From: a virus
Direction: 5' to 3' (one strand)
IMG/VR virus record: IMGVR_UViG_3300050821_008370
Coordinates: 1-41,110 of that record
DNA: 41,110 nucleotides
In this document: in pieces, positions 2,966 to 34,551 of the stretch
How the letters are laid out: every line of letters begins with the position of its first letter
Numbering within the stretch: position 1 is the stretch's first letter
Translations under genes and position numbers: made by a program
The notes under the pieces: generated by a model
What the model was told of the DNA's origin: nothing
The model's input: only the letters and a program-made list of their open reading frames with translations
The model's database searches: none

Positions 2966-3113
2966 ACCGCGCCCGGGGCCCCAAAACAGAAAACCTCAAG
3001 GGGGGGCCTTCTGCATTTCCGCAATAGCGATTAAACCAAGGCAGATGTGTTGTAATTGCGCCTGCCAATAGCCCCTGCCCTAATGATAGTACTACATATA
3101 GTCGCACGATAAT

Positions 3114-3128
3114 GCATAGCTGCTATGC
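3114..3128. promoter_or_regulatory. 15-bp perfect palindrome (operator candidate)
   Basis: GCATAGC (3114-3120) and GCTATGC (3122-3128) are exact reverse complements around a single T. It sits between the diverging terminase and early operons, just upstream of the ACGCATGATA boxes, as expected for a repressor or activator site. Confidence 0.45.
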
Positions 3129-3135
3129 TAACATA

Positions 3136-3178
3136 ACGCATGATACGCACTTGATAAGACGCATGATAAGCTTATATC
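3136..3178 (+). promoter_or_regulatory. Early promoter region with two ACGCATGATA boxes
   Basis: ACGCATGATA occurs at 3136-3145 and 3159-3168, spaced 23 bases apart. A sigma70-like promoter can be drawn with TTGATA at 3151-3156, a 16-base spacer and TATATC at 3173-3178. It would start transcription just before the ribosome site of the 3208 gene. The unit TTGATA-(2)-ACGCATGATA recurs almost exactly at 5115-5131, so it is either a phage-specific promoter or an operator. Confidence 0.5.
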
Positions 3179-3207
3179 TCATTGGTAACACAGTGAGGTT
3201 TATGCTT

Positions 3208-3948
3208 ATGTCATCCGATCGTTTCTTCTCCGTCGATAGCCCCAAAGCCATCAAAGCGCAAGCGCTTGGCTGGCTCAACGCCATCAACTACATGGCTCCT
3301 GCGAGCACCGCTGGCGTTGGCAATCTTTGCCCCCATGCGTCGCCTGGATGCTTAGCGCTCTGTCTCGGCTGGTATAGCGGCCAGGCCGCTATGCTCAGCA
3401 ATGACAAGCTCGAGACTGGCAGCAATGCGACGCGCAACTCGCGCGTTCGCAAGGCGCGTTTGTTCATGCAGGAGCGCCAAGAGTTCATGCGACAAATGGT
3501 CAGAGGCATTGAAGCTTGCGTTCGCAAGGCCAATCGCCTTGACCTTGACCTTTGCGTGCGACCAAACGGCGCAACGGATATTTCGTGGGAAGGCGTGCGA
3601 TATAATGGTATGACCATATTCGAGACGTTTCCTACTGTTCAATTCGTTGACTATACTAAGAATTACAAACGAATGCTTAGGTTCTGCAACCATATGCTAC
3701 CCAAGAACTATCATCTTACGTTCAGTCGAAGTGAGACAAACGAGGCCGAATGCGCCGACGTGCTTCGCGCTGGCGGCAATGTCGCCGTTGTTTCGTCACG
3801 CGAAATGCCGGCTGAGTATTTGGGTTATCCGGTGATTGATGGCGACAAGTCGGACCTGCGTCATTTGGACCCCAAGGCTTGCGTGGTGTGGTTGACGCCC
3901 AAGGGGCGCAAGGCGAAGCGCGACGCGTCGGGGATGGTGCTGCGATGA
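3208..3948 (+). CDS. DUF7227 / gp88-like phage protein
   Basis: 246 residues. It resembles a widespread phage family (DUF7227, related to mycobacteriophage gp88) whose biochemical role is not known to me. Supporting segments are the Cys cluster CPHASPGCLALCLG (C-x6-C-x3-C), CVRPNGATDISWE, VQFVDYTKNYKR, YHLTFSRSETNE, YPVIDGDKSDLRHLDP and a basic C-terminal KGRKAKRDASG. The Cys pattern could bind a metal or Fe-S cluster; this is inference. The open frame extends upstream to 3112, but 3208 (MSSDRFFS) is preferred: GAGG at 3195-3198 is nine bases upstream and the promoter at 3151-3178 lies just before it. The ATG at 3202 is a less well-spaced alternative. First gene of the rightward early operon. 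Confidence 0.8.
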   Translation: MSSDRFFSVDSPKAIKAQALGWLNAINYMAPASTAGVGNLCPHASPGCLALCLGWYSGQAAMLSNDKLETGSNATRNSRVRKARLFMQERQEFMRQMVRGIEACVRKANRLDLDLCVRPNGATDISWEGVRYNGMTIFETFPTVQFVDYTKNYKRMLRFCNHMLPKNYHLTFSRSETNEAECADVLRAGGNVAVVSSREMPAEYLGYPVIDGDKSDLRHLDPKACVVWLTPKGRKAKRDASGMVLR

Positions 3949-4178
3949 GTGCGAAACTTTCGCCCGCTGAGCTTCAGGCTCTGAGCTATTGGAAGCTGCA
4001 CAATGGGCGGCATTGGAAGCTCGAGCTTATGAAGGCTTGGGGCAACCACGACTATGGTCGTTCGTTGCCGAGTGATCATCCGGCGTTGTTGCATGGTTTG
4101 CGCAATCGTTTGGGTCCGACTTGGCTGGCGCGGTTCAGTTTGGATCGAGCGATAAAGATCGGGCATTCGGGAGATTGA
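3945..4178 (+). CDS. Small early protein, unknown
   Basis: 77 residues, unrecognised. The ATG overlaps the stop of the DUF7227 gene (ATGA), which indicates translational coupling. The sequence is helical and basic, with several Trp (YWKLHNGRHWKLELMKAWGN) and no membrane segment. It is followed within 15 bases by a GC-rich hairpin that probably ends this short operon. Confidence 0.6.
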   Translation: MSAKLSPAELQALSYWKLHNGRHWKLELMKAWGNHDYGRSLPSDHPALLHGLRNRLGPTWLARFSLDRAIKIGHSGD

Positions 4179-4190
4179 CAGAACGGGCGA

Positions 4191-4214
4191 GCCGGCGCGA
4201 TCCTTCGCGCCGGC
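4191..4214 (+). terminator. Strong hairpin after the first early operon (terminator candidate)
   Basis: GCCGGCGCG (4191-4199) and CGCGCCGGC (4206-4214) form a perfect 9-bp stem with a 6-base loop, 13 bases after the stop at 4178. Only a weak T-tract (GTTTCG) follows, so termination may be partial or Rho-assisted. Confidence 0.6.
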
Positions 4215-4238
4215 GTTTCGAGGTTCTCCGCTCTTCAG

Positions 4239-4262
4239 GCTTAGCAAATAGTCATGCTAAGC
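4239..4262. repeat. Inverted repeat GCTTAGCA / TGCTAAGC
   Basis: Perfect 8-base arms at 4239-4246 and 4255-4262 around an 8-base loop. It lies at the GC-to-AT transition between the first hairpin and the T-rich region. It could be an operator or a second stem of a terminator array. Confidence 0.45.
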
Positions 4263-4294
4263 AACAATCGACATAAAATATAATTACCCTACGG

Positions 4295-4377
4295 GTTCCG
4301 CGCGAGAGATTTTCTTTTTTTTTTCACTGACATGGATTTTCATGTTAGCTTTTTTTGCGTTTTTTTTCGCGCGGAAC
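4295..4377. other. Long inverted repeat enclosing T-rich tract (origin or regulatory RNA candidate)
   Basis: GTTCCGCGCGA (4295-4305) and TCGCGCGGAAC (4367-4377) are exact 11-base arms 61 bases apart. The interior is T-rich on the plus strand, with T runs of about 10, 7 and 8 bases, and contains a small dyad ACATG-GATTTT-CATGT. The stretch 4263-4441 is strikingly AT-rich in a GC-rich genome and holds no gene. Strand asymmetry and easy melting fit a replication origin or a structured transcript. Confidence 0.45.
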
Positions 4378-4390
4378 ACGTTACCTTTTT

Positions 4391-4408
4391 ATATTATTCG
4401 TATAATAT
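4391..4408 (+). promoter_or_regulatory. Palindromic -10 region before the 4442 gene
   Basis: ATATTAT (4391-4397) and ATAATAT (4402-4408) are perfect 7-base arms, and a consensus TATAAT -10 box (4401-4406) lies across the centre. No good -35 hexamer is visible, so an activator or a phage-specific factor may be needed. The expected start point is about 30 bases before the ATG at 4442. Confidence 0.45.
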
Positions 4409-4441
4409 TGCTTGTCTCGACACTTTGAAAGATTCTGAAAT

Positions 4442-5080
4442 ATGGAAAACCCCCTCGCGGACATGCTAGAAGGTTTGGCTATTCCGGATTACGGAAAGCT
4501 TTCGTTCGAAGAACAATGCGCATATTACGTTGCACTTTTGCCTTATAAGCTCGCAACCACGGGCGCAACCATGCGCTTCCCACCCGCAGCGGTTGCACAG
4601 GCCGCTGGCGTGAGCCAATCGACCATTTCGCTGCTATCGGACGCCGGCCAGGTCCGAGGCGGTCAATTGCGCTATCCGCGCGTGGCCGCCGAATACGCCA
4701 AGCTCGGACACGAAACCTTTGTCCACAAATATCTGACCCCGATCATTCGCGAGCGGCTGGCGCAAGCGCTCGACGATTGGAAGCGCCGCAAGCGCAATCC
4801 CGACGTCAACGAACAAGGCTACAATCCGCGCGCCAATCGCTACGTCGGCCGCCACGAATGGCCGAAAACCTCAATCGAGCTTCACGCCATATTCTACATC
4901 GACCTAGCGCATGATCGCGGCGGCTACCTGTGGTTCAATCTGAAACCGCGTCAGGACTTGCCCGAAATCCCGCTCCACCAAGCGATCGGGCAAGGCGATC
5001 CCGAGCGGGCCAATCGCGGCTTCGCCACCAGCGAAGACGCCTATCGCTGGGTCAAGGCCTACCTGAGCCCCAAGCTCTAA
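4442..5080 (+). CDS. Putative DNA-binding protein with N-terminal HTH-like segment
   Basis: 212 residues, family not recognised. Residues about 40-75 (MRFPPAAVAQAAGVSQST, then ISLLSDAGQVRGGQLRYP) look like a helix-turn-helix with a short wing. The rest is mixed alpha/beta with a basic linker (DDWKRRKRNPDVNEQGYNPR) and aromatic strands (GGYLWFNLKP). It stands alone between two AT-rich control regions, which suits a regulator acting on both sides, for example at the ACGCATGATA boxes; that link is inference. The ribosome site is weak (GAAAG). Stop at 5080 is followed by the next promoter region. Confidence 0.6.
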   Translation: MENPLADMLEGLAIPDYGKLSFEEQCAYYVALLPYKLATTGATMRFPPAAVAQAAGVSQSTISLLSDAGQVRGGQLRYPRVAAEYAKLGHETFVHKYLTPIIRERLAQALDDWKRRKRNPDVNEQGYNPRANRYVGRHEWPKTSIELHAIFYIDLAHDRGGYLWFNLKPRQDLPEIPLHQAIGQGDPERANRGFATSEDAYRWVKAYLSPKL

Positions 5081-5103
5081 CGAAAAATATTCCATCATTG
5101 CGC

Positions 5104-5144
5104 TTGACGCGCGCTTGATAAACGCATGATAGCCACCATATAGT
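5104..5144 (+). promoter_or_regulatory. Promoter region with third ACGCATGATA box
   Basis: Two overlapping sigma70-like readings exist: TTGACG (5104-5109), 17 bases, TGATAG (5127-5132); or TTGATA (5115-5120), 18 bases, TATAGT (5139-5144). ACGCATGATA is at 5122-5131, preceded by TTGATA just as at 3151-3168. It drives the early operon beginning at 5259. Confidence 0.5.
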
Positions 5145-5218
5145 ATTCATCGAAACAACGACTTGGCTGCCAAATCGCCCAACGCTAGTGGGAAAGAGGG
5201 CCGCAACGCCAGGCAAAT

Positions 5219-5243
5219 TGAGGCTCAGGACGGGCGAGCCTCA
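5219..5243 (+). promoter_or_regulatory. Leader hairpin next to the ribosome site
   Basis: TGAGGCTC (5219-5226) and GAGCCTCA (5236-5243) form a perfect 8-bp stem with a 9-base loop, ending two or three bases before the GGAG of the 5259 gene. The untranslated leader would be about 110 bases. Position suggests control of ribosome access or mRNA stability. Confidence 0.5.
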
Positions 5244-5258
5244 TAGGAGCTAACGCGC

Positions 5259-5438
5259 ATGACATTCGACCAATGCAAGCTTTACGCGCAACGCCAAGCG
5301 AATTCGCAAGGCATCACGCTCGTTATCTGGAATCTTAATCGGTTCAATCCGCTCTACGTCGTACGCAACTATCGCGAAGGCGATGAAAACAAGCCTGGCT
5401 TTGTCCAGCGCTTTTATCCGGAGACTATCGTTCGATGA
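5259..5438 (+). CDS. Small early protein, unknown (59 aa)
   Basis: 59 residues, unrecognised. MTFDQCKLYAQRQAN begins after GGAG about ten bases upstream, and the stop overlaps the next ATG (ATGA). The middle has hydrophobic and aromatic strand-like sequence (ITLVIWNLNRFNPLYVV), and the protein ends RFYPETIVR. First gene of the second early operon. Confidence 0.6.
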   Translation: MTFDQCKLYAQRQANSQGITLVIWNLNRFNPLYVVRNYREGDENKPGFVQRFYPETIVR

Positions 5439-5680
5439 GCAATCCTGACCGCCTGCAGCGTGAGGCGCAAGAGCACGCTGAAACCCTGGTCGAAGACCGC
5501 GGCCTCTTCAATGCGCTCGCTTGGGCCATTCATTGCGCCAACCGCACGACCGACGGCTTTTGGTCGCGCGTCGTTCAAGCCATCGAAGCGATCCGCGATG
5601 AGGACCGCGACAACGAAAACGACGACGATCCGGCCGCCGATTACGGCGATTGGAAGTTTCACCAGGAGCACGATCAATGA
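5435..5680 (+). CDS. Small acidic early protein, unknown
   Basis: 81 residues. Helical N-terminal half, then a very acidic stretch (DEDRDNENDDDPAADYGD). Coupled by ATGA overlaps on both sides. An acidic DNA-mimic-like role is possible, but nothing shows it. Confidence 0.6.
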   Translation: MSNPDRLQREAQEHAETLVEDRGLFNALAWAIHCANRTTDGFWSRVVQAIEAIRDEDRDNENDDDPAADYGDWKFHQEHDQ

Positions 5681-5895
5681 CCGACACGCTTGAGATCCGC
5701 CGGTTCGAACATGGCTCAATCTGGTGGGGCGTGTTCGACGTGGCCAAGGGTACGTTCGTCGCCAGCTATCCGGATCAAATCCACGCTTACGCCTGGGCGG
5801 TTGGCTACCTCAATGAGCATATTCGCCATTTAAAAGCGGACGCAGAGCGCTTGACAGAGACAAACAACGCTCTAAATAAGCGCATGAGCGCATAA
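5677..5895 (+). CDS. Small early protein, unknown
   Basis: 72 residues from the ATG at 5677, which overlaps the previous stop. A compact aromatic N-terminal part (FEHGSIWWGVFDV) is followed by a helix that may be coiled coil (HLKADAERLTETNNALNKR). No recognised family. Confidence 0.6.
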   Translation: MTDTLEIRRFEHGSIWWGVFDVAKGTFVASYPDQIHAYAWAVGYLNEHIRHLKADAERLTETNNALNKRMSA

Positions 5896-5938
5896 CCCTC
5901 GCGCGCTCATGCTTCAATCCTTCGAAAGGCCAACGCTC

Positions 5939-6208
5939 ATGAACCGCCAAGTCAACCCCGATTGCTGCTACGAAGCTGAAGACGGCACCATGTACATGCT
6001 TGAGCCTGTTCACGGCACGCCCGAATGGCGCGTCGTGAAGGATGGGCGCGGGCATCGAACCTTCACCTCCCTCGCCGCCGCCAAGGGCTGGCTCGAGCAT
6101 GTCCTCGAGCATCCCGAAAGCGACCAGCCGCGCGTGATCGTCGCCGGCAACGTCAGCGCCGACTTCAAGGCCAAGCTCGCCGCCGCGCTCAATGGAGGCA
6201 AGCGGTGA
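5939..6208 (+). CDS. Small early protein, unknown
   Basis: 89 residues. The start at 5939 (MNRQVNPDC) is chosen because AAAGG lies nine bases upstream; an earlier in-frame ATG at 5909 lacks a ribosome site. It has a small beta-rich core (YMLEPVHGTPEWRVVKDG) followed by two helices. The stop overlaps the GTG start of the next gene. Confidence 0.6.
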   Translation: MNRQVNPDCCYEAEDGTMYMLEPVHGTPEWRVVKDGRGHRTFTSLAAAKGWLEHVLEHPESDQPRVIVAGNVSADFKAKLAAALNGGKR

Positions 6209-8379: not shown

Positions 8380-8425
8380 CGGGTCAGTGGAAAACTTTTC
8401 GCAAGCTTGCTCGAGTCTGACGCTA

Positions 8426-8460
8426 GGGCGCATCCTGCACGCTCAAAACAGGATGCGCCC
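8426..8460 (+). terminator. Perfect 12-bp hairpin in the primase leader
   Basis: GGGCGCATCCTG (8426-8437) and CAGGATGCGCCC (8449-8460) pair completely around an 11-base loop. No T-tract follows, so it may be a Rho-assisted terminator, an attenuator or an mRNA-stabilising stem. It lies about 45 bases after the early operon and 57 before the primase start. Confidence 0.55.
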
Positions 8461-8517
8461 CGATCGACAACCCTCGCCCAATTCCCAACCAAGACGACAA
8501 TGGACCGAGGCTGGGCC

Positions 8518-11061
8518 ATGCCTAAACAGCCTAAGCCCGACGGCTCTGTCGTGCAACTCGTGCCCGACGTCGATTGGACGTTGGATTTGCCGGCCGATCA
8601 AAAGAAAACCGTCATGGATCAACGCGAGCTCACCGTGCTCGCGGCGCGTCAACTCATGGCTCCGGTTCACTATTGCTTGCCGCGCGCGGACAAGCCGCTG
8701 CCGCCCGATGAGGATGAGAAACTTCACCAGACCGACAACGATCTTCGCGTTTGGATTGACAACGACCGCAAGCAGAAACTGAACGCGCTCGCCTATCTGC
8801 AGAACGGCGTCGTCGAAGTCCGCTTCTTTGGTCCGGATCAATCGATCAATCAGTGTTTCTTCGCCGCCTGCGCCAGGCTGGGGATCGCGCCGCGCTATGC
8901 GTTCGGCCGCGCTTCGAAACCGATTGCGACATCGATCCTGTTCAAGCTCCGCGACGACGAGGCGAAGCGCCTCGACGAGGACTATTCCGGCTTCAAGCCC
9001 AAGGCGTTCACGCTCGAAGACACGCGCCGCGGCGTCGCCATCAATTACGCGCCTCCGATCAAGAAAGGCTCAAACGCGCATGTGGTCACCACAATCGCGC
9101 CAGGAAGCCTCCTGTGGCACGAGAACGGCGTCGACTATGATCTGATCACCTGGCGCGCGGAGAACGGCCAGGGGCCCGCCGCACGCTGGCGGACGGGGGC
9201 TGCGCCGGTCGAGTTCTTCCAGATCGTCCGCGCTGCAGCGTTCGCGTCGATTCTCAACATCATCAGCCAAAAAGCCTGGGAGGACTATTCGAAGCGGCGC
9301 GCGTTCTCCGAGCTCATGGCGCGCATCGTCCGCGACGGCCAGGCGATCAACGCCAATGTCGTATTCGCCAAAGCCTCGCGCGCGATCATCGCGGATCCCT
9401 CGCACGCTGAGCTTTTGCTCGAGCACATTTGCCAGCAACGCGGCAAGCCGGCGGATCGCGAGGAATGCCTGGAGATGTTCCAATTCGCCCGCAAACGTCT
9501 CGAGGCCGATCCCGCGCGCCTCGACGTCATGGGCTGGACGGGAATCGGCAATTTCTTTGGCGACGAAGCGCGCACGGCGCTGCGCGCGGTTCTCAATGTC
9601 GGCGCAGATTCAACCCTGCTTGAAGACTTCGCTGAGCGGTACCTGTTCCATTCGGGTCAAAGTCAGTTTGTAGACCGCCAAGCCTTCCGCGAAGGCCACG
9701 CGACATTCATCTTCTCCAAAGAGGGGCTGACGCTCCGCCATGCGCCTGATCTCATCCAGACCAAGAAAAAGCCGGTCGAAGCCTTCCCGATCTTCATCAA
9801 GTCGAAGCTTCGTCAGGATGTCACGGACGTTGAGATTTACCCCGATCATCCGCCTGGCTCGATTATCCGTGTATCGCGCGAAGGCGCGACCATTCCCGAC
9901 AACGACTATGCGCCCGAGCACAGCCGCTTAATCTTCAACGAGTGGCGCGGGCTTTACGTGAAGCCCGCCAAGACCATCGAGCGGGCTCTTGAGGCCGAAT
10001 GCATTGACAAGCTCGACCACATGCTCAGCCTGGTCGCACGGACCAAGCCGCGCGCCCAATGGATCAAGGCGCATTTCGGCTGGACGCTGTTGCATCCGGG
10101 TCGAAAACAACAGGTCGCACTGGTTTGCACCGGCGATCAGGGCACCGGCAAATCGTTCTTGTGTCAAACTTTCGCTCAAGCGGTGTTTGGCCGTTACGCC
10201 GACACAGCGAGCGTACGCGCTCTCAATGGGCAATTCTACATCGCCGGCTATGTCGGCAAGCTGTGGGTCAGCCACGACGAATTCATCTCCAATTTCGACA
10301 ATGCCGAGATCCTGAAGACGCTGATTCGCGGGACTCGAGTCTCAGGCGAGCTCAAAGGCCGGGACGCCGCCAGCTATACGATCTACGCACGCTTGGCGTT
10401 CACCTCAAATGAAGCGAACCCTGGCATATCACGCGGGCGTGACGATCGCGGGCTTTTCCAGGTCACCAGCATCTCCGCCGGCACCGAGGGCATTCTGCCT
10501 GGCGAATTCCAGGACCGCATGCGCAGAGAGGTCGGGCCGTTCTACGAAGCCTACGACGAATTTCTGAAGCGCGACGACGTGCGTCAGGCTTACGTCAAAC
10601 TTCTCATTGACTGCGCGCCGTCGAAGATATCAGATGTCGAGGACTTGACCTATTCTGCGATGCGGGACGCTGATGTGGCGCGCTCGCATCTGAGCGATAA
10701 GCAAGTCGTGGCCAAGACGATCCTGGAGAGCGGCGTGATCCACGGCGGCCACGACATCGCCATGCCGTTCCACGATCCGGATTTCTTCGCGCGCGTGAGC
10801 AACTTGAAGCGTGAGATGGGCGTGCGCCAGGTGACTTCGGACGAGGTTTTGAACGAGTATATCGAGGCGGGATTGATCGATCGGCCCGGGCCAGGCCAGC
10901 CCTATCTGTTTAAGTACAAGATCGGCGCGCTGCAGCGACTCTATGGCGATTATTTAGGCGTGCCGTTGCATTCGCAGTGGCCGCTCGAGCCCAACGACGA
11001 CATGCCCAACGACTGGCGCGAGGGCGATGCGATGGAGCCATGGAAAGGCCGCGGCAAATGA
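8518..11061 (+). CDS. DUF5906-type primase/SF3 helicase
   Basis: Replicative helicase, probably with primase-related sequence in its N-terminal half. The C-terminal third has an SF3 ATPase: Walker A GDQGTGKS at 539-546, Walker B KLWVSHDE ending at 588, motif C FTSNE at 628-632 and an Arg-rich RGRDDRG near 638-644. This resembles the DUF5906 helicases of phages and plasmids. I see no clear primase catalytic motif in residues 1-400. The open frame extends back to 8407, but 8518 (MPKQPKPDG) is chosen for its GAGG seven bases upstream, giving 847 residues. The stop overlaps the methyltransferase start. Confidence 0.85.
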   Translation: MPKQPKPDGSVVQLVPDVDWTLDLPADQKKTVMDQRELTVLAARQLMAPVHYCLPRADKPLPPDEDEKLHQTDNDLRVWIDNDRKQKLNALAYLQNGVVEVRFFGPDQSINQCFFAACARLGIAPRYAFGRASKPIATSILFKLRDDEAKRLDEDYSGFKPKAFTLEDTRRGVAINYAPPIKKGSNAHVVTTIAPGSLLWHENGVDYDLITWRAENGQGPAARWRTGAAPVEFFQIVRAAAFASILNIISQKAWEDYSKRRAFSELMARIVRDGQAINANVVFAKASRAIIADPSHAELLLEHICQQRGKPADREECLEMFQFARKRLEADPARLDVMGWTGIGNFFGDEARTALRAVLNVGADSTLLEDFAERYLFHSGQSQFVDRQAFREGHATFIFSKEGLTLRHAPDLIQTKKKPVEAFPIFIKSKLRQDVTDVEIYPDHPPGSIIRVSREGATIPDNDYAPEHSRLIFNEWRGLYVKPAKTIERALEAECIDKLDHMLSLVARTKPRAQWIKAHFGWTLLHPGRKQQVALVCTGDQGTGKSFLCQTFAQAVFGRYADTASVRALNGQFYIAGYVGKLWVSHDEFISNFDNAEILKTLIRGTRVSGELKGRDAASYTIYARLAFTSNEANPGISRGRDDRGLFQVTSISAGTEGILPGEFQDRMRREVGPFYEAYDEFLKRDDVRQAYVKLLIDCAPSKISDVEDLTYSAMRDADVARSHLSDKQVVAKTILESGVIHGGHDIAMPFHDPDFFARVSNLKREMGVRQVTSDEVLNEYIEAGLIDRPGPGQPYLFKYKIGALQRLYGDYLGVPLHSQWPLEPNDDMPNDWREGDAMEPWKGRGK

Positions 11062-13288: not shown

Positions 13289-13648
13289 ATGGCTCAACCT
13301 CCCCGACGCCCACCGCCGCAACCGCAACGCCGCGATCCGCCGCCCTTGCGCACCGAGGAAGACAACTTTCCGCCGCCAGCAGTCCAAGACAGAAGGGTCA
13401 TCGCCTCCGGAGGCGGACGTCTGCCGCTTGAGCCAGGCGTCGAAGGCGAGACGTATCCGCCGCCCGAGCCGGTGAAGACGATCGGTGACGAACAGCGCGA
13501 GCGCTCCGCTTACATCGAATCGATCGGCGTCGAAGCCTATAAGGCCGAGTACGACGACCGCCCTGCAGACGGCGGCCAGCCGCAAGTCGAAGGGGCCCAG
13601 TATCCCAGCGATTTCGGACCGCGGCGCGTTAACAGTCCGCAGCGATAA
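13289..13648 (+). CDS. Pro-rich disordered protein
   Basis: 119 residues from MAQPPRRPPPQP, chosen because GGAGA lies six bases upstream; an in-frame ATG at 13238 has no good site. The N-terminal part is Pro/Arg-rich, and the end is acidic and polar with a short ordered-looking piece (RSAYIESIGVEAYKAEY). It is probably unstructured. Unknown function; it may interact with the next, similarly Pro-rich gene product. Confidence 0.6.
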   Translation: MAQPPRRPPPQPQRRDPPPLRTEEDNFPPPAVQDRRVIASGGGRLPLEPGVEGETYPPPEPVKTIGDEQRERSAYIESIGVEAYKAEYDDRPADGGQPQVEGAQYPSDFGPRRVNSPQR

Positions 13649-13653
13649 CGGCC

Positions 13654-14595
13654 ATGGCGGTCTTTGCTCCTGGCGACACGCCGGATCCTGGCACCGGCGA
13701 CCAGAACGGCTTTATGGCGTGGCTCTCTGGCCTTCCAGGCCAGGCGCAAGCCTCGATCCTGCGCAGCATGAACTACGCCAATCCGGTGCAGCCGGCGGCG
13801 GCGGACACGCTGACCAACAACGGCAGTCCTCTCAACAATCCTTCGCCGGTGCCGCAGGCCTTGGCTGGCGGAGGTCCGCCGGTGCCCCCGGCTGTGCTTG
13901 GCGGAGGTCAGCCGCCCGCGCCGATGCCGCCAGACGCTCCGACGCCGCCGCTGCCGGCGAGCGGCGGGAGTTCGGGCGGCGGAGGCAATAGCCAATCGTA
14001 CAACGGACCTTCGATCCTGCCGCAAGCGCGCGGCGTGATGCCGGTCATGGGGCCGCCGCAGAGCCCGACGCCGTGGTTCCATGGTTCGAATACGCCCTAC
14101 GCGCCGAATCCCGCCATTGGCGCTCCGCCGCCGCCACGACCAGCCGTCTCGAACCCCGCCGTGGCGCGAGGTTCGAATAGGCCGGCGGGCGCGCGAATTC
14201 CCTCGACGGCGACCGCTTCTGTTCCGCCGGCCGGTTCGCCGTTCACGGTGATCAATCGGCCGAATATGGGCCCAGCCCCGATCTATGATCAGCAAGGAAA
14301 TCCCACCGGTCCCGTTTCTGGCGGCGCGCTGGCGCGTGGAGGCGGCCCGCCGCTGATGACGGCGCTCGACTTATCCAGACTCTTTGGCGGCGGCGGAGGC
14401 GGCGGACAAGCTGCGCCGGCGGCGGCAGCGAGGCCTGCAGCGACGATTCCAGCGAGCGCCACGGCGTCCGTTCCGCCTGACGTGACGGGCAACGCGCCGT
14501 GGAATTATGGGCCCTATCAGAAGAGCGTCGTTCGAACGCCAGGTCAGCCCTATGGGCCGATCTATCCTCGCGCCCCGGCGACCAGCAACTTTTAA
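13654..14595 (+). CDS. Pro/Gly/Ala-rich low-complexity protein (313 aa)
   Basis: Not recognised. A short ordered start (NGFMAWLSGLPGQAQASILR) is followed by long Pro/Gly/Ala-rich sequence. A repeat with core (I/S)P-(S/A)-(T/S)ATASVPP occurs twice, near residues 182-195 and 266-279. It resembles virion or accessory low-complexity proteins of the minus-strand block, yet lies in the rightward block between methyltransferase and SSB genes. Only a weak ribosome site is seen. Arg-rich antisense frames here are shadows. Confidence 0.65.
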   Translation: MAVFAPGDTPDPGTGDQNGFMAWLSGLPGQAQASILRSMNYANPVQPAAADTLTNNGSPLNNPSPVPQALAGGGPPVPPAVLGGGQPPAPMPPDAPTPPLPASGGSSGGGGNSQSYNGPSILPQARGVMPVMGPPQSPTPWFHGSNTPYAPNPAIGAPPPPRPAVSNPAVARGSNRPAGARIPSTATASVPPAGSPFTVINRPNMGPAPIYDQQGNPTGPVSGGALARGGGPPLMTALDLSRLFGGGGGGGQAAPAAAARPAATIPASATASVPPDVTGNAPWNYGPYQKSVVRTPGQPYGPIYPRAPATSNF

Positions 14596-14627
14596 TCACC
14601 ACTCAACAGCTTATCGTCCATTCATTG

Positions 14628-14655
14628 TTGACAAGCGCCTATCGAGCGTTATGTT
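14628..14655 (+). promoter_or_regulatory. Sigma70-type promoter before the SSB operon
   Basis: Consensus TTGACA (14628-14633), a 16-base spacer and TATGTT (14650-14655). It lies in the 117-base gap after the stop at 14595 and would start transcription near 14662, about 50 bases before the ATG at 14713. It is the best host-type promoter in the window. Confidence 0.7.
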
Positions 14656-14712
14656 GCGCTTTGCGACGCCGTGAAAGCCGGCGAAGCCCCGCAACATGGA
14701 GCAACGATAGCA

Positions 14713-15207
14713 ATGAAACCCGAGACTCAAGCCGCATGCGAAGCGGCGAAAAAGGCGCTTGAAACGGCCCGCGCCTCCCTCTTCGCAGAAGCCGAATCCG
14801 CCATCAGCGTCAACGAAGCCCCTGATCTCGTCAGGTTCTACGCCGACATGCGTGAAGAACTCGAATCAATGGCGTCGACGATCTCCGAGCTCAACAAGCT
14901 CGACAAAGATCTCTCCTACACGCGTGTGCCGGCGTGCTTCGATGCGCACGGAATCCAGAACATCCGAATCCCCGGCTATGGACTCGTCGGCCTCAACCGC
15001 CGTTGGTCGTGCTCAATCCTCGATAAGCCCAAGGGCTATAAATACCTGCGCGACAATGGACAGGGCGGCATGATCATCGAGACGGTCAACGCCTTGTCGC
15101 TTGGCGCATGGGCGCGTGAAGAAGTCGAGGACAAAGGCATTGAGCCTCCAGACGACGTCTTCAAGACGTCCGTCGCCCGCTATGTGTCGCTGACGAGGTC
15201 GAAATGA
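14713..15207 (+). CDS. Conserved protein next to the SSB gene, unknown
   Basis: 164 residues from the ATG at 14713 (a GTG at 14671 is possible but lies close to the promoter start point). The N-terminal half is helical, and the C-terminal half has an IPGYGLVGLNRRWS strand turn, YLRDNGQGGMIIETVNALSL and a final TSVARYVSLTRSK. Podophage replication blocks often carry such a protein just before an SSB-like gene; its function is not known to me. The stop overlaps the SSB-like start. Confidence 0.6.
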   Translation: MKPETQAACEAAKKALETARASLFAEAESAISVNEAPDLVRFYADMREELESMASTISELNKLDKDLSYTRVPACFDAHGIQNIRIPGYGLVGLNRRWSCSILDKPKGYKYLRDNGQGGMIIETVNALSLGAWAREEVEDKGIEPPDDVFKTSVARYVSLTRSK

Positions 15208-16154
15208 GCGCCCTCGCGAAGCCCCGCTACACGATCAGGGAAGGCAAGACAGTCATGGTCAACGATATCGCACCGGTCAGCAAAAACGCGCTGCCGGCGC
15301 ATCTGCAAGGGAAGCAAAAGGTGGAAAGCTGGGGCGAAATCGATCCGCGTCAGCGGATGCTGCCACGCATCAAGCTCCTCCAAGCATCGAACCCCGAATG
15401 CGTCGACTATCCCGGCGAAGCCCGCGCAGGTGAATTCTGGCACACGACGCTGACCGAATCGCTTGGGCCCGAGTTCATCGGCGTGCCCATTATGAGGAGG
15501 CAGACGTACAACCTTTGGGCTCCGCGCTCGCCTGGCGAGGACCGCGGCATCCTGGCCCGGGCGCGCGACTTCATCCACTGGGATCCGCCGGAAGGCGAGT
15601 TCCATGTGCGCTACCCGATGAACCCAAAGACCTACACTTGGAAGCTCGCGCGCACGGTGAAGGAGTCGGGCTTGGCGGAGTTTGGCTCGAGCCGCATCGA
15701 CGATCCCTCGAGTCCGCCGGCGGCGACGCTGACCTTCGAAGTGCTCTGGTTCCTGCCTGAGTGGAACACTTTGGCGCTGACCTTGAACACGCGATCGGGC
15801 GTGAAAGAGGCGCGCAAGCTGTTCGCGATGGTGGACGCGCGGCCGCTCAGTCCGTTCTTCCAGCGCTACAAGGTTGTCTCGTTTCAGAACCGCGGTCCCG
15901 GCGGCGAGGCCTATTTCGGCTACAAATATCGCGGCGACGGCTACACCGATCCGGCCCTTTCCGCGATCACCGAGCCGCTGTTCGACCAGTGGAAGAACGT
16001 CGCCTTCGCCACGGCGGACGAGGACGAGGACGTCGATGGGGAGGCGGCCGTGCGTCGCGCATCATCCCCCCGCGACGCAATGTCGGAACGTGGCGCTCGC
16101 CCAGTCGAGTCCAGAGGTGAGTCCGGCGTTGTCGACGACGATATCCCGTTCTAG
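15204..16154 (+). CDS. Single-stranded DNA-binding protein-like
   Basis: 316 residues. The tail ends VVDDDIPF, the acidic tip used by bacterial SSB to recruit replication and repair proteins, after a disordered acidic linker (ADEDEDVDGEA). The globular part is beta-rich (YTWKLARTVKES, ATLTFEVLWFLPEWNTLALTLNTRSG), compatible with a diverged OB fold. It is about twice the length of E. coli SSB. The assignment rests on the tip and position and is not proven. Start ATG 15204 overlaps the previous stop; an internal ATG at 15255 is an alternative. Confidence 0.65.
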   Translation: MSALAKPRYTIREGKTVMVNDIAPVSKNALPAHLQGKQKVESWGEIDPRQRMLPRIKLLQASNPECVDYPGEARAGEFWHTTLTESLGPEFIGVPIMRRQTYNLWAPRSPGEDRGILARARDFIHWDPPEGEFHVRYPMNPKTYTWKLARTVKESGLAEFGSSRIDDPSSPPAATLTFEVLWFLPEWNTLALTLNTRSGVKEARKLFAMVDARPLSPFFQRYKVVSFQNRGPGGEAYFGYKYRGDGYTDPALSAITEPLFDQWKNVAFATADEDEDVDGEAAVRRASSPRDAMSERGARPVESRGESGVVDDDIPF

Positions 16155-16156
16155 CC

Positions 16157-16336
16157 GTGGTGGAAACTCCCCCCGATCGTCCGACGCTGGCGCGCTTGGA
16201 AAAGCTAATCGCGCTCGCCAACGACAGTCGGGGGGAGCCGATGACGCGCAAAAACGCCAAACGCATTCTGGCGAAGTACGCCAAGTTTTACCCCAGGCTT
16301 TTGAAGAGAACCGATGATCCTCGCAAAGCTCGCTGA
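16157..16336 (+). CDS. Small basic protein (59 aa, GTG start)
   Basis: Begins at GTG 16157 or 16160, two or five bases after the SSB-like stop; no clear ribosome site, so it would depend on coupling. Basic and helical (MTRKNAKRILAKYAKFYP). It overlaps the next gene by 23 bases. Not recognised. Confidence 0.45.
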   Translation: MVETPPDRPTLARLEKLIALANDSRGEPMTRKNAKRILAKYAKFYPRLLKRTDDPRKAR

Positions 16337-16904
16337 TGATCGATTTCTTGGCTTGCTGCGCAAAGCGCCTTTGATTGCTTTCCAGCGGCTCGAGTTCGGC
16401 TATGCGGTCGCGGCTCCTGGCGAGGCCTACTACGCGCCTATGGGGCATCCTGGCGGCGGCAATCTATCGGATGAGTTCGCTCAACATCTCAAAGACGTCT
16501 GTCTTCATCGCTTGTCGAACCCACAGCTGCGCACGCTGCGCCCGACGTCGAAGCCGATCCCGAGCGCAGCGCTCGTCAAACATCTCCAAACTCTCGATCT
16601 CTTCAGCCCTGAGCCTATGAGCGCGTATCCAAAAGCCGCCGGCGATCATCCCGCGGTCGTCGACTCCGAGTGCCAGGTCGTCATCCAGGCGATCGAGGAG
16701 CACGAGCGGCCGGATCTCAAGGACGCGATGCTTCCAGGCAAGCGCGACGTAATGTCCGACGCGGTTAGCACTGTCATCGACCATGCCGAATCGGTGCGGG
16801 AACTCGTCGAGGTTGGCGACTGGAAGCCTTACGCCGTCCAGTTCCACCTTCTGCAAGCTTCGAGAGCGCTGCAGAGCGCGCTCGCGCTTCTGTTGAAGCC
16901 ATGA
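16314..16904 (+). CDS. Unknown protein (196 aa)
   Basis: Mixed alpha/beta, no recognised motif. N-terminal LADDRFLGLLRKAPLIAFQR; a middle Ser/Pro region; a C-terminal helical part (DVMSDAVSTVIDHAESVREL) that could oligomerise. The start lies inside the preceding small gene, and the stop overlaps the next ATG. Confidence 0.6.
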   Translation: MILAKLADDRFLGLLRKAPLIAFQRLEFGYAVAAPGEAYYAPMGHPGGGNLSDEFAQHLKDVCLHRLSNPQLRTLRPTSKPIPSAALVKHLQTLDLFSPEPMSAYPKAAGDHPAVVDSECQVVIQAIEEHERPDLKDAMLPGKRDVMSDAVSTVIDHAESVRELVEVGDWKPYAVQFHLLQASRALQSALALLLKP

Positions 16905-17065
16905 ACTGGGAGAACCTCGCCATCGCAGCGGTCGTCAGCATTTTGATGATCGCTTCGTATCTCTGGGGCTACCGAGACGGCGTCAAATACTGCGCGCGTC
17001 AAATGGAGCCCTTGGCGGAGATGGCCAAGGACATGGCTGACCGCCTCCGGGACGGGAAGCCATGA
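16901..17065 (+). CDS. Single-pass membrane protein (54 aa)
   Basis: MNWENLAIAAVVSILMIASY is a membrane helix, followed by a charged cytoplasmic or periplasmic helix. ATGA overlaps on both sides support translation. Unknown function. Confidence 0.6.
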   Translation: MNWENLAIAAVVSILMIASYLWGYRDGVKYCARQMEPLAEMAKDMADRLRDGKP

Positions 17066-17262
17066 AACTTGACGAGTTTCTCGCGCGCTGCATGGCGGCG
17101 CGCAAAATGCGCCTGGTCAAAGATCCGCACGGCATGAGACTGCCGGAAGAGCTCTGGATGCAAGCCATGCCCGACGCTCAATTCATCGTCGGCGCGCTGA
17201 TCGCGTTCGACCTCCACCAGACGATCGTCGAATTCTATAGCGAACAGGAGGAAGGGGAATGA
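17062..17262 (+). CDS. Small protein, unknown (66 aa)
   Basis: Helical, starts MKLDEFLARCMAARKMRLV and ends with an acidic EQEEGE. Coupled by four-base overlaps to both neighbours. Not recognised. Confidence 0.55.
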   Translation: MKLDEFLARCMAARKMRLVKDPHGMRLPEELWMQAMPDAQFIVGALIAFDLHQTIVEFYSEQEEGE

Positions 17263-17459
17263 ACGCAGAGGCGGAGATTCCGCTCGAAGAAACAAAAGCG
17301 CGCGTAGAGGGATTTGTCAGTTCTCTGACGAAATTGCTTCTGAAGCACGCCGACGAGCACAAGGTCGTGTTTCATCACCACGAGGTTCTTATCGCGCACG
17401 ACGAAAAGTCGGATCGCGTCCTTCTCACCTTCGCTCTTCTACCAAAGCGGCGCAGATGA
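17259..17459 (+). CDS. Small protein, unknown (66 aa)
   Basis: Helix then beta hairpin (KVVFHHHEVLIAHDEKSD, RVLLTFALLPKRRR) with a His cluster HHH. The GGAGGAAGG upstream of the ATG is strong. Not recognised. Confidence 0.55.
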   Translation: MNAEAEIPLEETKARVEGFVSSLTKLLLKHADEHKVVFHHHEVLIAHDEKSDRVLLTFALLPKRRR

Positions 17460-17959
17460 ACCGCATTGAGCGTGAACTCCTTCGAAAGCATCGCCCCTTG
17501 CTCGAGGAGTTCATGCGCCGCGCCATCGTGGCGCAGGAGGCCATCAACAAACTTCTGGAGGATGGGGAGGTGAACAACCTTGAAAGCACACTTAAGACTA
17601 AGCTTGTGGGAGATTTGCGTCGCCTTGGAGCATACGCCCGCCGGCACGAGGACAAACGCGCCGTTGGGCTCCTGGACATGGCAATCAAGCTACCCGGTCA
17701 CCCGCATTTGTTCGCTGAAGGCAAGCTCATCAAATATCAAGCTTTCGCGCCGACGCTTCGCCAATGGGAAGAAGGCAAGCGTTACATCGCGGCCGGCGGC
17801 CTCTGTTGCCTTATCGGCTGGGATCTAAAGACCAAAGCTATGTTCATCCACGACTGGGCGCAGATTGCTCATAAGAAAGATTCGTTTCCACCTGGCGGCA
17901 GCTTCAAGCCGCACGCCGAAACCCTGAGAGACTGGCTTGAATGGCGAATGACAAAGTGA
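17456..17959 (+). CDS. Unknown protein (167 aa)
   Basis: Helical N-terminal half rich in charged residues (IERELLRKHRPLLEEFMRRA), then a compact domain with GGLCCLIGWDLKTKAMF and FPPGGSFKPHAETLRDWLEW. No family recognised. The stop lies 19 bases inside the next gene. Confidence 0.55.
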   Translation: MNRIERELLRKHRPLLEEFMRRAIVAQEAINKLLEDGEVNNLESTLKTKLVGDLRRLGAYARRHEDKRAVGLLDMAIKLPGHPHLFAEGKLIKYQAFAPTLRQWEEGKRYIAAGGLCCLIGWDLKTKAMFIHDWAQIAHKKDSFPPGGSFKPHAETLRDWLEWRMTK

Positions 17960-18228
17960 ACCATCAGAACACCGGCGCGATCGCGCAAGCAATGAAATAT
18001 CAAGTTCGCACCGGCAACGGCTGGGACGAGCTCTCGCCGGCGGCGAAGGAGTCGATCGACCAGATTCTGAGCTCGATCGCCCGCACGGTTTCGAGCGGCC
18101 AGGGTACGCACTGGGACGGCATCATGGCTTACGCGGACGCCGCCAAGCCTGTGCCTCCGACGCAAGTCGATATCGAGCGCGACATGCGCGGCCTAGTCGA
18201 GAAAGTCGCCAGGACCGGCAATGCGTGA
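17941..18228 (+). CDS. Small early-type phage protein, unknown
   Basis: 95 residues. The middle (ELSPAAKESIDQILSSIA, then SGQGTHWDGIMAYADAA) resembles helical segments found in many small phage early proteins. Not assigned. It overlaps neighbours at both ends. Confidence 0.55.
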   Translation: MANDKVNHQNTGAIAQAMKYQVRTGNGWDELSPAAKESIDQILSSIARTVSSGQGTHWDGIMAYADAAKPVPPTQVDIERDMRGLVEKVARTGNA

Positions 18229-18586
18229 TCTGCACAACCTCGATCTCTTCCGCATTCGCGATTCCTTCGTGCTCGAGAGCTATGGCTCCTATGGCGACGG
18301 CGGCAACGGCGCGTTCATTATCCCGGTGCCTGGCCAGATAACCGCGCTCAAGGTCGTCGCCTCGAATGGCGAGGGCTGGGACCACATTTCCGTCTCCGTG
18401 AACGGCGAGCCGCGGACGCCCACCTGGGCGGAGATGGAGATCGCCAAGAAGGCGTTTCTTGGCGACGTCACGGCGATGCAGCTGCATCTGACCGCCAAGG
18501 ATCACATTAGCTGTCACCCATACACGCTGCACATCTGGCGGCCGCACAACCGCGATATCCCCCTCCCGCCCAAAATCATGGTGTGA
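18221..18586 (+). CDS. DUF7694-like phage protein
   Basis: 121 residues. Recognised by GSYGDGGNGAFIIP, VVASNGEGWDHISVS, TPTWAEMEIAKKAFLG, AMQLHLTAKDHISCHPYTLHIWRP and PLPPKIMV, a set of blocks found in a widespread phage domain (DUF7694) of unknown function. The full domain is present. It lies in a coupled operon just before the XRE-type regulator. Confidence 0.75.
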   Translation: MRDLHNLDLFRIRDSFVLESYGSYGDGGNGAFIIPVPGQITALKVVASNGEGWDHISVSVNGEPRTPTWAEMEIAKKAFLGDVTAMQLHLTAKDHISCHPYTLHIWRPHNRDIPLPPKIMV

Positions 18587-18588
18587 CG

Positions 18589-18927
18589 ATGGCAATTAAA
18601 GGCTTCACCTACAAATCCTACAATTTCGTCGAGAAAGACCCGATTATCGACGAGCTCAGGACGGTCGTTCAGGGCAGCGGCGCGACCTACAAGCAGATCC
18701 ACGAAGACAGCGGCGTTTCGACGCAGACGCTGGCGAACTGGTTCTCCGGGGAAACGCGCCGCCCGCAAGCCGCCTCGCTCAACGCCGTGGCGCGCGCGCT
18801 GGGCCACAAGCTGGGCTTCGTCCCGATCGAAACCGCCTCCGTCGTTCAACCCACGCCAGCGGTCGTCCCTAGCCGTTCTATGGGCCACGTCGTCCGCATG
18901 GCGAAGATCCGGAAGGCCGCGCGATGA
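18589..18927 (+). CDS. XRE-family HTH regulator
   Basis: 112 residues. Residues about 29-75 (ATYKQIHEDSGVSTQTLANW, FSGETRRPQAASLNAVARAL) are a classical Cro/CI-type helix-turn-helix; a basic tail follows. ATG 18589 is preferred over the GTG at 18583. It sits inside the replication operon and not at a divergent switch, so an accessory transcription regulator is more likely than a lysogeny repressor. Confidence 0.75.
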   Translation: MAIKGFTYKSYNFVEKDPIIDELRTVVQGSGATYKQIHEDSGVSTQTLANWFSGETRRPQAASLNAVARALGHKLGFVPIETASVVQPTPAVVPSRSMGHVVRMAKIRKAAR

Positions 18928-19223: not shown

Positions 19224-19630
19224 GCCAGGTCAAATTCAAGATCGGGTTCACAATCCCGTCCGACACGCTGATCGCCATGATCGCCAAATTCCTGCCGATC
19301 GAGGATCTCTCGGTCGAGGAAATCGTGCCCAAACCGACGCTCGCTGAGCGCTCGATCGCAATTCACAAACTTACTCAGCAAGCCATCGCCACGCACAAAT
19401 CCAAGCCCCAGATCAACAAGCGCGCGTCGCCAGGCCCGAATCTGAAGAAGGGCATCAACGGCATCGTCGTGACCGAGCTCTCGACCGGACCCAAGCGCGC
19501 GATCGACATGCAGCCCAAAGTCGTGGCCGCCGGCTTCTCGGCAAATTCCGTCACTTCGCGGCTCGAGGAATTGCGCAAATACGGCGTCATCGAGCGCATG
19601 GGCGACGGCAAATGGAAGCGGGTAGGCTGA
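19220..19630 (+). CDS. Winged-helix-like protein
   Basis: 136 residues from ATG 19220, which overlaps the previous stop; the extra N-terminal residues of the longer open frame are unlikely. The C-terminal 45 residues (VVAAGFSANSVTSRLEELRK, then YGVIERMGDGKWKRV) match a winged helix, with recognition helix and wing. The N-terminal half has a basic linker. Probably DNA-binding; target unknown. Confidence 0.6.
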   Translation: MSQVKFKIGFTIPSDTLIAMIAKFLPIEDLSVEEIVPKPTLAERSIAIHKLTQQAIATHKSKPQINKRASPGPNLKKGINGIVVTELSTGPKRAIDMQPKVVAAGFSANSVTSRLEELRKYGVIERMGDGKWKRVG

Positions 19631-19631
19631 G

Positions 19632-20063
19632 ATGGGCGTCCTCGAGGAGGTCAAGGAAGCCGCGCTCAGGACGAAAATGCGATGGCCGCGCGATACCGAC
19701 GCCGACAAAGCGCATCGCGCGATCGCCGCTTTCGAACTCGGCTTTATCCCGCTAATGCGCCTCTACAGCCGCGATAACGCGCTCTCGATCCTAGACCCGA
19801 ATCGGAAGATCAGGATCGGAAAGCGGGATCGGCCGACGACGTTCAACATCTCCGAGCGCCATATTCGGCGCGTCGAAACGATCCGCGAGAAGCGGCCGCT
19901 CGACGCCGCGAGACTCGAGAGCATCGCGATGAAAGGGACCATGTCGCTCGAACTGGTCGAGTACAACGTCAATCATCCGCCGACGGCGGACGCGCTCGAA
20001 GCTATGTGGCTCACCACGACGGACAAAGAGCGAAACGAGTTCTTGGCGAGAATCAGACGGTGA
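19632..20063 (+). CDS. Unknown protein (143 aa)
   Basis: Helical and basic (ADKAHRAIAAFELGFIPLMR; ISERHIRRVETIREKRPL), ending with a charged helix. Could bind nucleic acid. The stop overlaps the GTG start of the SNF2 helicase. Not recognised. Confidence 0.55.
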   Translation: MGVLEEVKEAALRTKMRWPRDTDADKAHRAIAAFELGFIPLMRLYSRDNALSILDPNRKIRIGKRDRPTTFNISERHIRRVETIREKRPLDAARLESIAMKGTMSLELVEYNVNHPPTADALEAMWLTTTDKERNEFLARIRR

Positions 20064-21484
20064 AGCTTGATCCGGTTCAGGAAGCGGCGCTGAGATTTGG
20101 GGAGGGCAAGCGCGGCGTCGGCTACTTCATGGAAATGGGGCTCGGTAAGACGCTTCTAACCTTGGTTGAGTTCGACCGCGCAGCGAGGAATCGAGTCGCT
20201 ACGCGTTTAGTGGTGATTGCGCCCAACTCGTTTAAACCTGGCTGGGTTGAGGAGATACTCAAGCACGGACTGGCCTTCCAGCCGTTCATCTATGTTTCGG
20301 GCTCGAAAGCCAACGATCACTGGTTCGCCACAACGAAATACGGCGCTCCGCCGATCCTGATCATCAATTACGAAGCCGTCCGGATGCCAGCCGTGCTTCT
20401 CAAGGTGATGGCTTGGATGCGGGTCAGGCCGACGATGCTGGCGATCGACGAGTCAATCCAGATCAAGACGCACGACAGTAAGCAAACCAGGTCGACGCTC
20501 AAACTCGCCCTCGAGGCGAAGATCGTCCGTTGCCTGAGCGGATTGCCACAGACGCAGGGGCCACATGACCTCTATCCCCAATTGCGCGCGATCGGGCTGT
20601 TCCAGGGCGTCAAGTTCTGGTCGTTTCGCAACGATTTCTGTCAGATGGGCGGCTGGGAAAACAAGCAAGTCGTAGGGGTTAAGAACGCCGACGTGCTCGC
20701 GCGGATCATGACTCCAGTCATCTTCCAGGCCAAAAAGGCCGATTGGCTTCCGGAGCTTCCGCGCAAAGACTTCACCATTCGCACTTACGAGATGAGTGGC
20801 GAACAAGCGGCCCAGTACAAGCAAATGAGGGATGAATTTCTTCTCGAGTTGGAGACTGAAATAGTCGCGGTCAACATCGCTGTTTCGAAATACGAGAAAT
20901 TGTCGCAGATCCAGTGCGGTTTTATCCTCAACGAAAATGGGGATCCGCGCGTTCTGGTCGAACCGGAAAAGAACCCGCGCCTGGCGGTTCTGCTCGATCT
21001 GCTTGCTCAGATCGAGGGCAAAGTGATCATCATCTACCGGCACCGCTACACCTTCGAGATTCTGTCGGCGGCGCTCAAGGCTCGAGGGATAGGTTTCACT
21101 TGTATCAAAGGGCAAATGAAACCCGACGAGACGACCGAGCAAAAGCTTTGGTTCAACGAAATCTCAGAATATCGAGCCATGCTCGGCCAGTGCGACGCGA
21201 TCAAATACGGCCACACGCTTCTCGGCGGGAAGGATGCGAGAGATCATTGCTCGACGATGATCTTTTTCGAGTCAAGTTACTCGCTTGATACGCGCACGCA
21301 GGACGAGGACCGGATCCACCGCCGCGGGCAGCGCGGCGAGAACGTGCTCTATATCGATCTATCCGGCTCGGACATCGATCGGCGCGTGGTCAGGGCGCTG
21401 CAGAAGAAAGAGGATCTTTACGAGGCCGTTTTCAGCAAATTAAAACTCGCTGCGCCCCTTGAAGACAGCGCAGTTACGCGCTAA
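20060..21484 (+). CDS. SNF2-type DEAD-like helicase/ATPase
   Basis: SF2 translocase, 474 residues from the GTG at 20060, which overlaps the previous TGA. Motifs: Walker A MEMGLGKT at 24-31; motif Ia-like VVIAPNSFKPGW; SNF2 motif II AIDESIQIK at 128-136 (DES in place of DEAH); C-terminal domain with VIIIYRHRYTFEIL and motif VI DRIHRRGQRGEN at 417-428. Phage SNF2 helicases are thought to remodel replication or recombination intermediates. It closes the replication block; the longer upstream frame is a shadow. Confidence 0.88.
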   Translation: MKLDPVQEAALRFGEGKRGVGYFMEMGLGKTLLTLVEFDRAARNRVATRLVVIAPNSFKPGWVEEILKHGLAFQPFIYVSGSKANDHWFATTKYGAPPILIINYEAVRMPAVLLKVMAWMRVRPTMLAIDESIQIKTHDSKQTRSTLKLALEAKIVRCLSGLPQTQGPHDLYPQLRAIGLFQGVKFWSFRNDFCQMGGWENKQVVGVKNADVLARIMTPVIFQAKKADWLPELPRKDFTIRTYEMSGEQAAQYKQMRDEFLLELETEIVAVNIAVSKYEKLSQIQCGFILNENGDPRVLVEPEKNPRLAVLLDLLAQIEGKVIIIYRHRYTFEILSAALKARGIGFTCIKGQMKPDETTEQKLWFNEISEYRAMLGQCDAIKYGHTLLGGKDARDHCSTMIFFESSYSLDTRTQDEDRIHRRGQRGENVLYIDLSGSDIDRRVVRALQKKEDLYEAVFSKLKLAAPLEDSAVTR

Positions 21485-33261: not shown

Positions 33262-34551
33262 TTAGAACTCCGCGCTGGCTCTATAAGTATATCCGTATAG
33301 TATGGCATCGGCTGCCGCTGTTGTTGCTTGCGCTGCCATAGTAAAATGATCAGGACCAGCATCATTTATAACCATCGCAGCATAATTAAGTGATGGCGCA
33401 ATACTCATATCCATGGTCGGAGTGGCGCGCATCCATGTGGAAAACTGGATTGGATTATAAGCAAATCCATTTGATGTTGCCCAATTGCTAACAGTACCGG
33501 TACCTGAACAATAATACCTCTGACAACACGCCAGTCTAGTCGGCAAGTCATCCGGCACGAACGGCGTTGCTACGCTGCCCGCTTCGAGCTTGACGCCAGT
33601 GAGCCCCCAAGTGGCGTTGTTGGTGCCGGTGACGTGAACCGCGCCCTGTGCGGCAAACGCCACTCCTCCAGCCGGTCCGGTCTGCCAAGCATTCATAATC
33701 GGAGTCTGAGCGCTTGAGCCGCTGCCAAGATCCCAGATGAGGGCTAGCCCGGGGCCATTTCCAGCCGGCCAAGCCGCCGCAGGACCGCTATCGCCAGGAA
33801 TGGTGAGAGTGATCTTTGTCCAAGTGTTCGCAGTCGGTAAGCTGTAAGTCGTGACGTAATAACGGAGGCTGGTGCCGCCTGACGCGGTTGGATTGCTACT
33901 CGAAAGAGCGAAGCTGAAATTTCCGATCAGGCTAGAGCGCGCCCAGAACGACACGGTGACCGACTGGTACCCCGGTGCGCCAAAGCCAAGATCAGCCACC
34001 GCGTCGGCTTCAATCGTATGCCCGACAAGAAGCTGCGCCGCAGCGGCGGACGTGTAGGCGCTTGTCGATTGAACGCCGAGGAAATAGGGAAATCCTGGCG
34101 CTTTGGTCGTGATCACGGCCAAGTTCTGGCCCATGTTGAACCGCGACGTCGCCTCAATATTCCCGCCATAAAAACGGTCAGGGCAGTAAATCCAGCCAGT
34201 CGCCAGAGCGGGAGTAGCCGCCCCAGCATTATGCTGGTCGAGGAGCATGTCGCCATTGTCGACGCGGTTCGGGTTGGATCCCGGTCCCGCCGGTCCCGCC
34301 GGTCCCGCTGGGCCCGTTCCTCCCGCTGGCCCTGTCGAACCTGCTGGGCCCTGTGCTCCCTGTGCTCCCTGTGCTCCCTGTGCTCCCTGTACTCCCTGTA
34401 CTCCCTGCGTTCCCGGCGGTCCTTGCGGACCTGTCGGGCCCGCGGGCCCTTCTGGTCCCGGAATTCCTGGCCCAGCCACCCACTTCACGCCGTCCCAGAT
34501 CCAACCCTGGAAGGCTTCGCCAACAGTGGGAGAGGCAGGAAAGTCGAGCAT
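33262..34551 (-). CDS. Collagen-like tail fibre 2
   Basis: 429 residues. The N-terminal [21 protein letters not shown] is a common fibre start. Gly-X-Y repeats cover residues about 28-92, including GAQ and GVQ runs. The C-terminal 330 residues form a beta-sandwich-like binding region ([53 protein letters not shown]) ending SAEF. It is a paralogue of the adjacent larger fibre. The last 280 bases are visibly more AT-rich than the rest. Likely adsorption to host surface sugars. Confidence 0.8.
34351..34404. repeat. Six tandem 9-bp repeats coding Gly-Ala/Val-Gln
   Basis: CTGTGCTCC four times, then CTGTACTCC twice, in frame with fibre 2 on the minus strand, coding GAQ and GVQ. Near-perfect DNA identity means copy number can change by slippage, altering shaft length. 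Confidence 0.85.

Follow-up and report, generated by a model that had tools for sequence, protein, structure and literature searches.

The DNA analysed here, called the window throughout, is the full 41,110 nt of IMG/VR virus record IMGVR_UViG_3300050821_008370. In its left part, a GP88-family gene (3112-3948) is followed by a small ORF, a GC-rich hairpin and a large imperfect dyad (locus W) which ends at the start codon of a gene for a 212-amino-acid protein with a helix-turn-helix (HTH)-like N-terminal domain (Table 1). Within a block of mainly rightward genes, which also holds an 884-amino-acid replicase and an SNF2-type helicase (20006-21484), the latter is the gene that directly follows the dyad. 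Structural genes in the window are oriented leftward. The GP88 transcription unit upstream probably ends at the GC-rich hairpin, and positions 4178-4232 show 91% identity in records G003/G015. Repeated phage promoter look-alikes were seen at 3151-3168 (TTGATAAGACGCATGATA) and, in the related form TTGATAAACGCATGATA with TATAGT, at 5115-5144, the second copy being conserved in G003 (locus L023). Because the spacing differs by one base, the pattern search caught the copy at 3151 only.

Table 1. Features of the dyad region and of the two genes discussed with it (window coordinates).
Feature	Position	Strand	Remark
GC-rich hairpin GCCGGCGCGA-TCCT-TCGCGCCGGC, then GTTT	4191..4214	+	outside the dyad
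Whole imperfect dyad, ~206 bp, centre near 4337	4234..4439	.	strongest dyad of the window
Small hairpin GCTTAGCA / TGCTAAGC	4239..4262	+	within outer left arm
Left core arm GTTCCGCGCGA	4295..4305	+	overlaps shared core GCGCGAGA at 4300-4307
T10 run, left flank of T-rich apex	4315..4324	+	
Apical hairpin CTGACATGGATTTTCATGTTAG	4327..4348	+	apex alike in L019 and L023
T7 and T8 runs, right flank of T-rich apex	4350..4367	+	T7 at 4350-4356, T8 at 4360-4367
Right core arm TCGCGCGGAAC	4367..4377	+	
AT hairpin ATATTAT-TCGT-ATAATAT, includes TATAAT	4391..4408	+	not kept in relatives
Gene for 212-aa protein, HTH-like N-terminal domain	4442..5080	+	linked to the dyad in relatives
Gene for 884-aa replicase: primase-polymerase-like N-terminal part and SF3/D5-type helicase (DUF5906)	8407..11061	+	

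A preliminary description of this segment had reported T-runs of 10, 7 and 8 bases, exact 11-base arms, a small internal dyad and a palindromic TATAAT region, all in gene-free DNA. The T-runs were read directly from the letters, the two core arms are perfect reverse complements of each other, and the internal dyad and the palindromic region are both present. Between 4178 and 4442 there is no plus-strand ORF of at least 60 amino acids, no tRNA and no Rfam match at gathering score. The description is thus correct to the base yet understates the feature, as the 11-base arms are the mere core of the dyad listed in Table 1. The arms escaped a generic repeat finder but are shown by letters, fold and dyad alignment alike. 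The TATAAT within the AT hairpin is a possible -10 element.

The strength of the dyad was assessed against shuffled sequence. As an unnormalised dyad scan was swamped by GC-rich coding windows, a scan normalised by dinucleotide shuffles was adopted, in which 4201-4460 had the top dyad z of the window (5.1; rank 1 of 817 windows). The fold of 4178-4441 (264 nt), the kind of transcript folding proposed in the preliminary description, lay far beyond shuffles (z -5.6; none of 200 shuffles as stable). For the 270 bases before the HTH-like gene the dyad z was 3.5, a score matched by 5 of 2000 dinucleotide shuffles, and the element was not ranked in an initial scan of folding energy against GC. The signal from the window alone is therefore moderate, and it is the relatives that make the dyad convincing. 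An iteron-type origin, with several direct repeats, was not found: a single two-copy family of a 10-nt repeat was detected, located in the upstream hairpin. A second large dyad precedes GP88 both in the window (3001-3210; z 3.8) and at locus L094 (2789-2995; z 8.0), and the two share the left-arm sequence CGCAATAGCGATTA.

Searches of Pfam, PHROG and PDB yielded no confident sequence match for the HTH family. Comparison of the HTH model with VIA-align returned common HTH regulators at Z under 5, which is low and uninformative, and the sole BFVD match obtained with Foldseek was a protein of the cultured Ochrobactrum phage vB_OspP_OH (OH; MT028492). No phage record was matched by tblastn of the window's HTH protein, no bacterial genome was found with the HTH alignment as query, single-protein IMG/VR scans with distant HTH proteins each recovered the query alone, and a DNA search of phages with 3001-6000 gave no match. 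HTH homologs were nevertheless located in IMG/VR records G003/G015, G007, G008, G011, G016, G042 and the record of locus L077, further in G018, G024, G030, G032, G034, G039 and G041, and in OH, where the homology is structural with a weak tblastn match. A second, smaller and weak HTH-family match lies between the HTH gene and the replicase in G008 (9735-10046), G042 (15366-15632), G041 (44276-44623) and G003 (19226-19360). OH also encodes, within 13523-18696, adenylosuccinate synthetase, nucleotide pyrophosphohydrolase, 5'-nucleotidase and DNA polymerase I; the paper on OH places it in a loose group that includes phiVC8 and SH-Ab 15497, and OH may use 2-aminoadenine. No genes of this type were recognised among the window ORFs searched.

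Counting identical elements once (the L077 element is identical to that of G011), 14 distinct relatives carry HTH homologs. A clearly significant large dyad lies just upstream of the HTH gene in ten of them. The z values against 2000 dinucleotide shuffles were L019, 12.7; L103, 11.9; L023, 9.4; L022, 9.1; L062, 7.9; L078, 6.3; L060, 6.3; L021, 6.2; and L043, 5.3, and the OH dyad had a z of 8.6. Dyads at L020 and L064 were marginal, and at L051 and L069 the HTH gene is present with no significant dyad upstream (2000 dinucleotide shuffles). Among the clearly significant dyads, that of the window is the weakest by the z 3.5 test. In the normalised scan the dyad was the top of its genome or record at W, OH, L094, L103, L060 and L062. 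Across phages it measures about 170-250 bp; throughout the close group, about 105-122 bp separate its centre from the start codon downstream, and in OH, where it lies at about 1.6-1.9 kb, it ends about 165 bp before the HTH homolog p08. The dyad stays with the HTH gene even where this is located on the other side of GP88 (L060). These observations identify the segment as a real, conserved structural element. Other structured regions were seen in GP88 relatives without the HTH gene.

Shape and letters of the element have had different fates. Between phages, elements align at E 0.01 only in short pieces, namely an apex piece common to W, L019 and L023, a terminator-like hairpin and a small end piece; the symmetry has thus outlived the sequence. 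The remaining arm sequence is unrelated between phages, yet each arm pairs with its own partner, so that changes on both sides have kept step. An alignment of five elements with MAFFT was not usable for covariation. The persistence of the dyad despite near-total turnover of its letters suggests that a symmetric or folded shape matters. The paired arm changes could reflect selection on shape, and palindrome correction by template switching during replication could contribute to the pairing as well. Among the parts that are kept, several close relatives have the core GCGCGAGA, or a near variant of it, in one arm or in both, and the T-rich apex partly persists.

The arrangement of these cores bears on the main alternative to the origin proposed below, which we regard as a real possibility: a regulatory site at which the HTH protein would bind inverted GCGCGAGA-type sequences before its own gene and control the early operon, the dyad reflecting a symmetric nucleoprotein complex and not an origin. 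It would account for a dyad that abuts the start codon of the HTH-like gene and follows this gene across GP88 in L060, and for the spacing of about 60-75 bp that several relatives show between inverted core motifs; the HTH fold, too, resembles many regulators, at low Z. However, arm symmetry over 170-250 bp with letters unrelated between phages goes far beyond what an operator needs, and several relatives lack the exact core or have it in altered form. An origin and an HTH-bound control region may also both hold.

If the dyad instead acted as RNA, G-U pairs should be tolerated in its arms. Mismatches within the symmetric alignments of the arms comprised 50 G-T and 74 A-C, and the isolated single mismatches were 6 G-T, 8 A-C and 20 other; isolated mismatches with three pairs at their flanks were few. 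That G-T does not exceed A-C argues against a plus-strand RNA hairpin; the RNA controls 6S and 4.5S, just two sequences, lean towards G-T (9 to 5 pooled). In the close group the better-folding strand varies, with neither consistently ahead, whereas all six relatives of the distant group fold better on the minus strand. The folded segment forms a long imperfect rod with an internal loop, as do 6S RNA and similar rod-like RNAs, but unlike 6S RNA it has no Rfam match and no G-U bias in its arms. We read the symmetry as belonging to the DNA. The structured RNA of the preliminary description, here a leader, an attenuator or a small RNA whose transcript from one strand would span the dyad, is consequently unlikely in spite of the strong predicted fold, although a minus-strand RNA is conceivable in the distant group. 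The array of terminators likewise put forward there, here intrinsic ones separating the GP88 unit from the early operon, appears very improbable. One terminator-like match lies in the segment (the apical hairpin followed by CTTTTTTT) and the GC-rich hairpin is found just upstream; the latter, however, already fits the terminator role, and in L019 and L022 the apical hairpin lacks a following T-run while the dyad is still there. What the relatives keep is the dyad, not hairpin-plus-T-run units.

The gene content of these phages points to a particular type of replication protein. DUF5906 was present in all seven aligned replicase members scanned, and a profile of 14 members matches the NrS-1 helicase chain (E 5e-6). 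AlphaFold modelled the window's replicase with middling confidence (mean pLDDT 69). A fold match to full-length AsfvPrimPol was obtained with this model (E 4e-6); other fold matches included the NrS-1 C-terminal region, PriRep1 and the primpol domain of pRN1 (ORF904). The protein thus models as a PrimPol joined to an SF3 helicase. The replicase occurs in each of the HTH records that were checked, which are all but G007 and the record of L077; four complete GP88 phages with no HTH gene were also without the replicase. This co-occurrence is partly a product of the search, because most HTH records were reached via helicase, replicase or GP88 genes.

Several known systems resemble this arrangement in part. 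The herpes simplex origins oriL and oriS consist of a long palindrome in which inverted binding sites surround an AT-rich centre. The phage dyad is alike in architecture, the only aspect compared; its arm letters turn over, whereas the arms of oriL/oriS are conserved binding boxes. The Sulfolobus plasmid pRN1 requires for replication a 100-nt stem-loop of which the structure is conserved and the sequence is not, and a similar stem-loop origin has been proposed near the replicase of the Bordetella phages BIP-1/BPP-1 (PMC4234260, PMC3869888). Like pRN1, the present phages have a replicase that models, at middling confidence, as PrimPol and SF3 helicase, and a large stem-loop kept in shape and not in letters (10 of 14 relatives clear, two marginal, two without); moreover, the pRN1 operon encodes a small DNA-binding protein, orf56, in a setting reminiscent of that of the HTH-like gene. 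Unlike the pRN1 stem-loop, of about 100 nt and 3' of the replicase gene, the phage dyad spans about 170-250 bp and precedes the HTH-like gene, in the window 4 kb upstream of the replicase. As the pRN1 stem-loop still works when displaced (PMC4234260), this distance lowers membership of the pRN1 type and not the analogy. The tailed phage BPP-1 (AY029185), whose replicase is of related architecture, has a large dyad at 26509-26815 (score 168; z 9.3). This dyad covers the intergenic region between bbp27 and bbp28, and the end of the replicase gene is about 0.4 kb away. It differs from the present dyad in lying near the replicase end and not before an HTH gene, may not be the stem-loop drawn in PMC4234260, and would likewise be a putative origin.

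By analogy with pRN1, with its like replicase and shape-conserved stem-loop, we propose that the segment is a structural replication origin of the phage with the large DNA dyad as initiation site, a reading to which we assign a probability of about one half. The origin is the best supported of the three functions considered in the preliminary description, by architecture and analogy and not by skew. The extremum of cumulative GC skew expected there is not at 4.3 kb, the minimum falling at 19,557 and the maximum at 34,111; the detrended AT skew does have a minimum at 4,546, but the rightward gene block begins at this place and can explain it. Relatives devoid of both arms and T-tracts, named in the preliminary description as counting against its reading, are not the rule: most have the dyad and several a T-rich apex. 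The proposal is supported by the dyad itself, some 200 bp long, with its apex rich in T and its inverted cores of the GCGCGAGA type; by the recurrence of a dyad beside the same HTH-like gene in most relatives although the arm letters have turned over; by the lack of G-U bias; and by co-occurrence with the replicase that models as PrimPol and SF3 helicase. The following points count against it: (i) the dyad is tied to the HTH gene, 4 kb upstream of the replicase, while the pRN1 stem-loop follows the replicase gene; (ii) L051 and L069 lack a significant dyad, and those of L020 and L064 are marginal; (iii) sharing of the GCGCGAGA core points to a degree of sequence-specific binding, as in an operator; (iv) further large dyads in OH and L094 show that big dyads are not unique to one place; (v) no clearly significant dyad is weaker than that of the window, and the replicase model is of middling confidence. 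The additional dyad in OH is huge (707-1018; z 7.6) and overlaps the annotated small ORFs p02/p03.

At such an origin, the symmetric or extruded stem-loop would be the site of assembly of the replicase, probably with the HTH protein acting as a factor for its landing or loading. The AT-rich apex would then be opened by the SF3 helicase and primed by the primase part of the replicase; in addition, the dyad may be the site from which the HTH protein regulates its own operon. More tentatively, the phages may share a family of origins recognised by DNA shape, in which replicase and dedicated HTH protein read a symmetric or extruded 200-bp dyad whose arms are free to change together. If this is true, structure-defined origins paired with PrimPol/SF3 replicases would be distributed among environmental phages and include that of the cultured vB_OspP_OH, which allows direct testing, and they would provide a means to find origins in metagenomic phages without skew signals.
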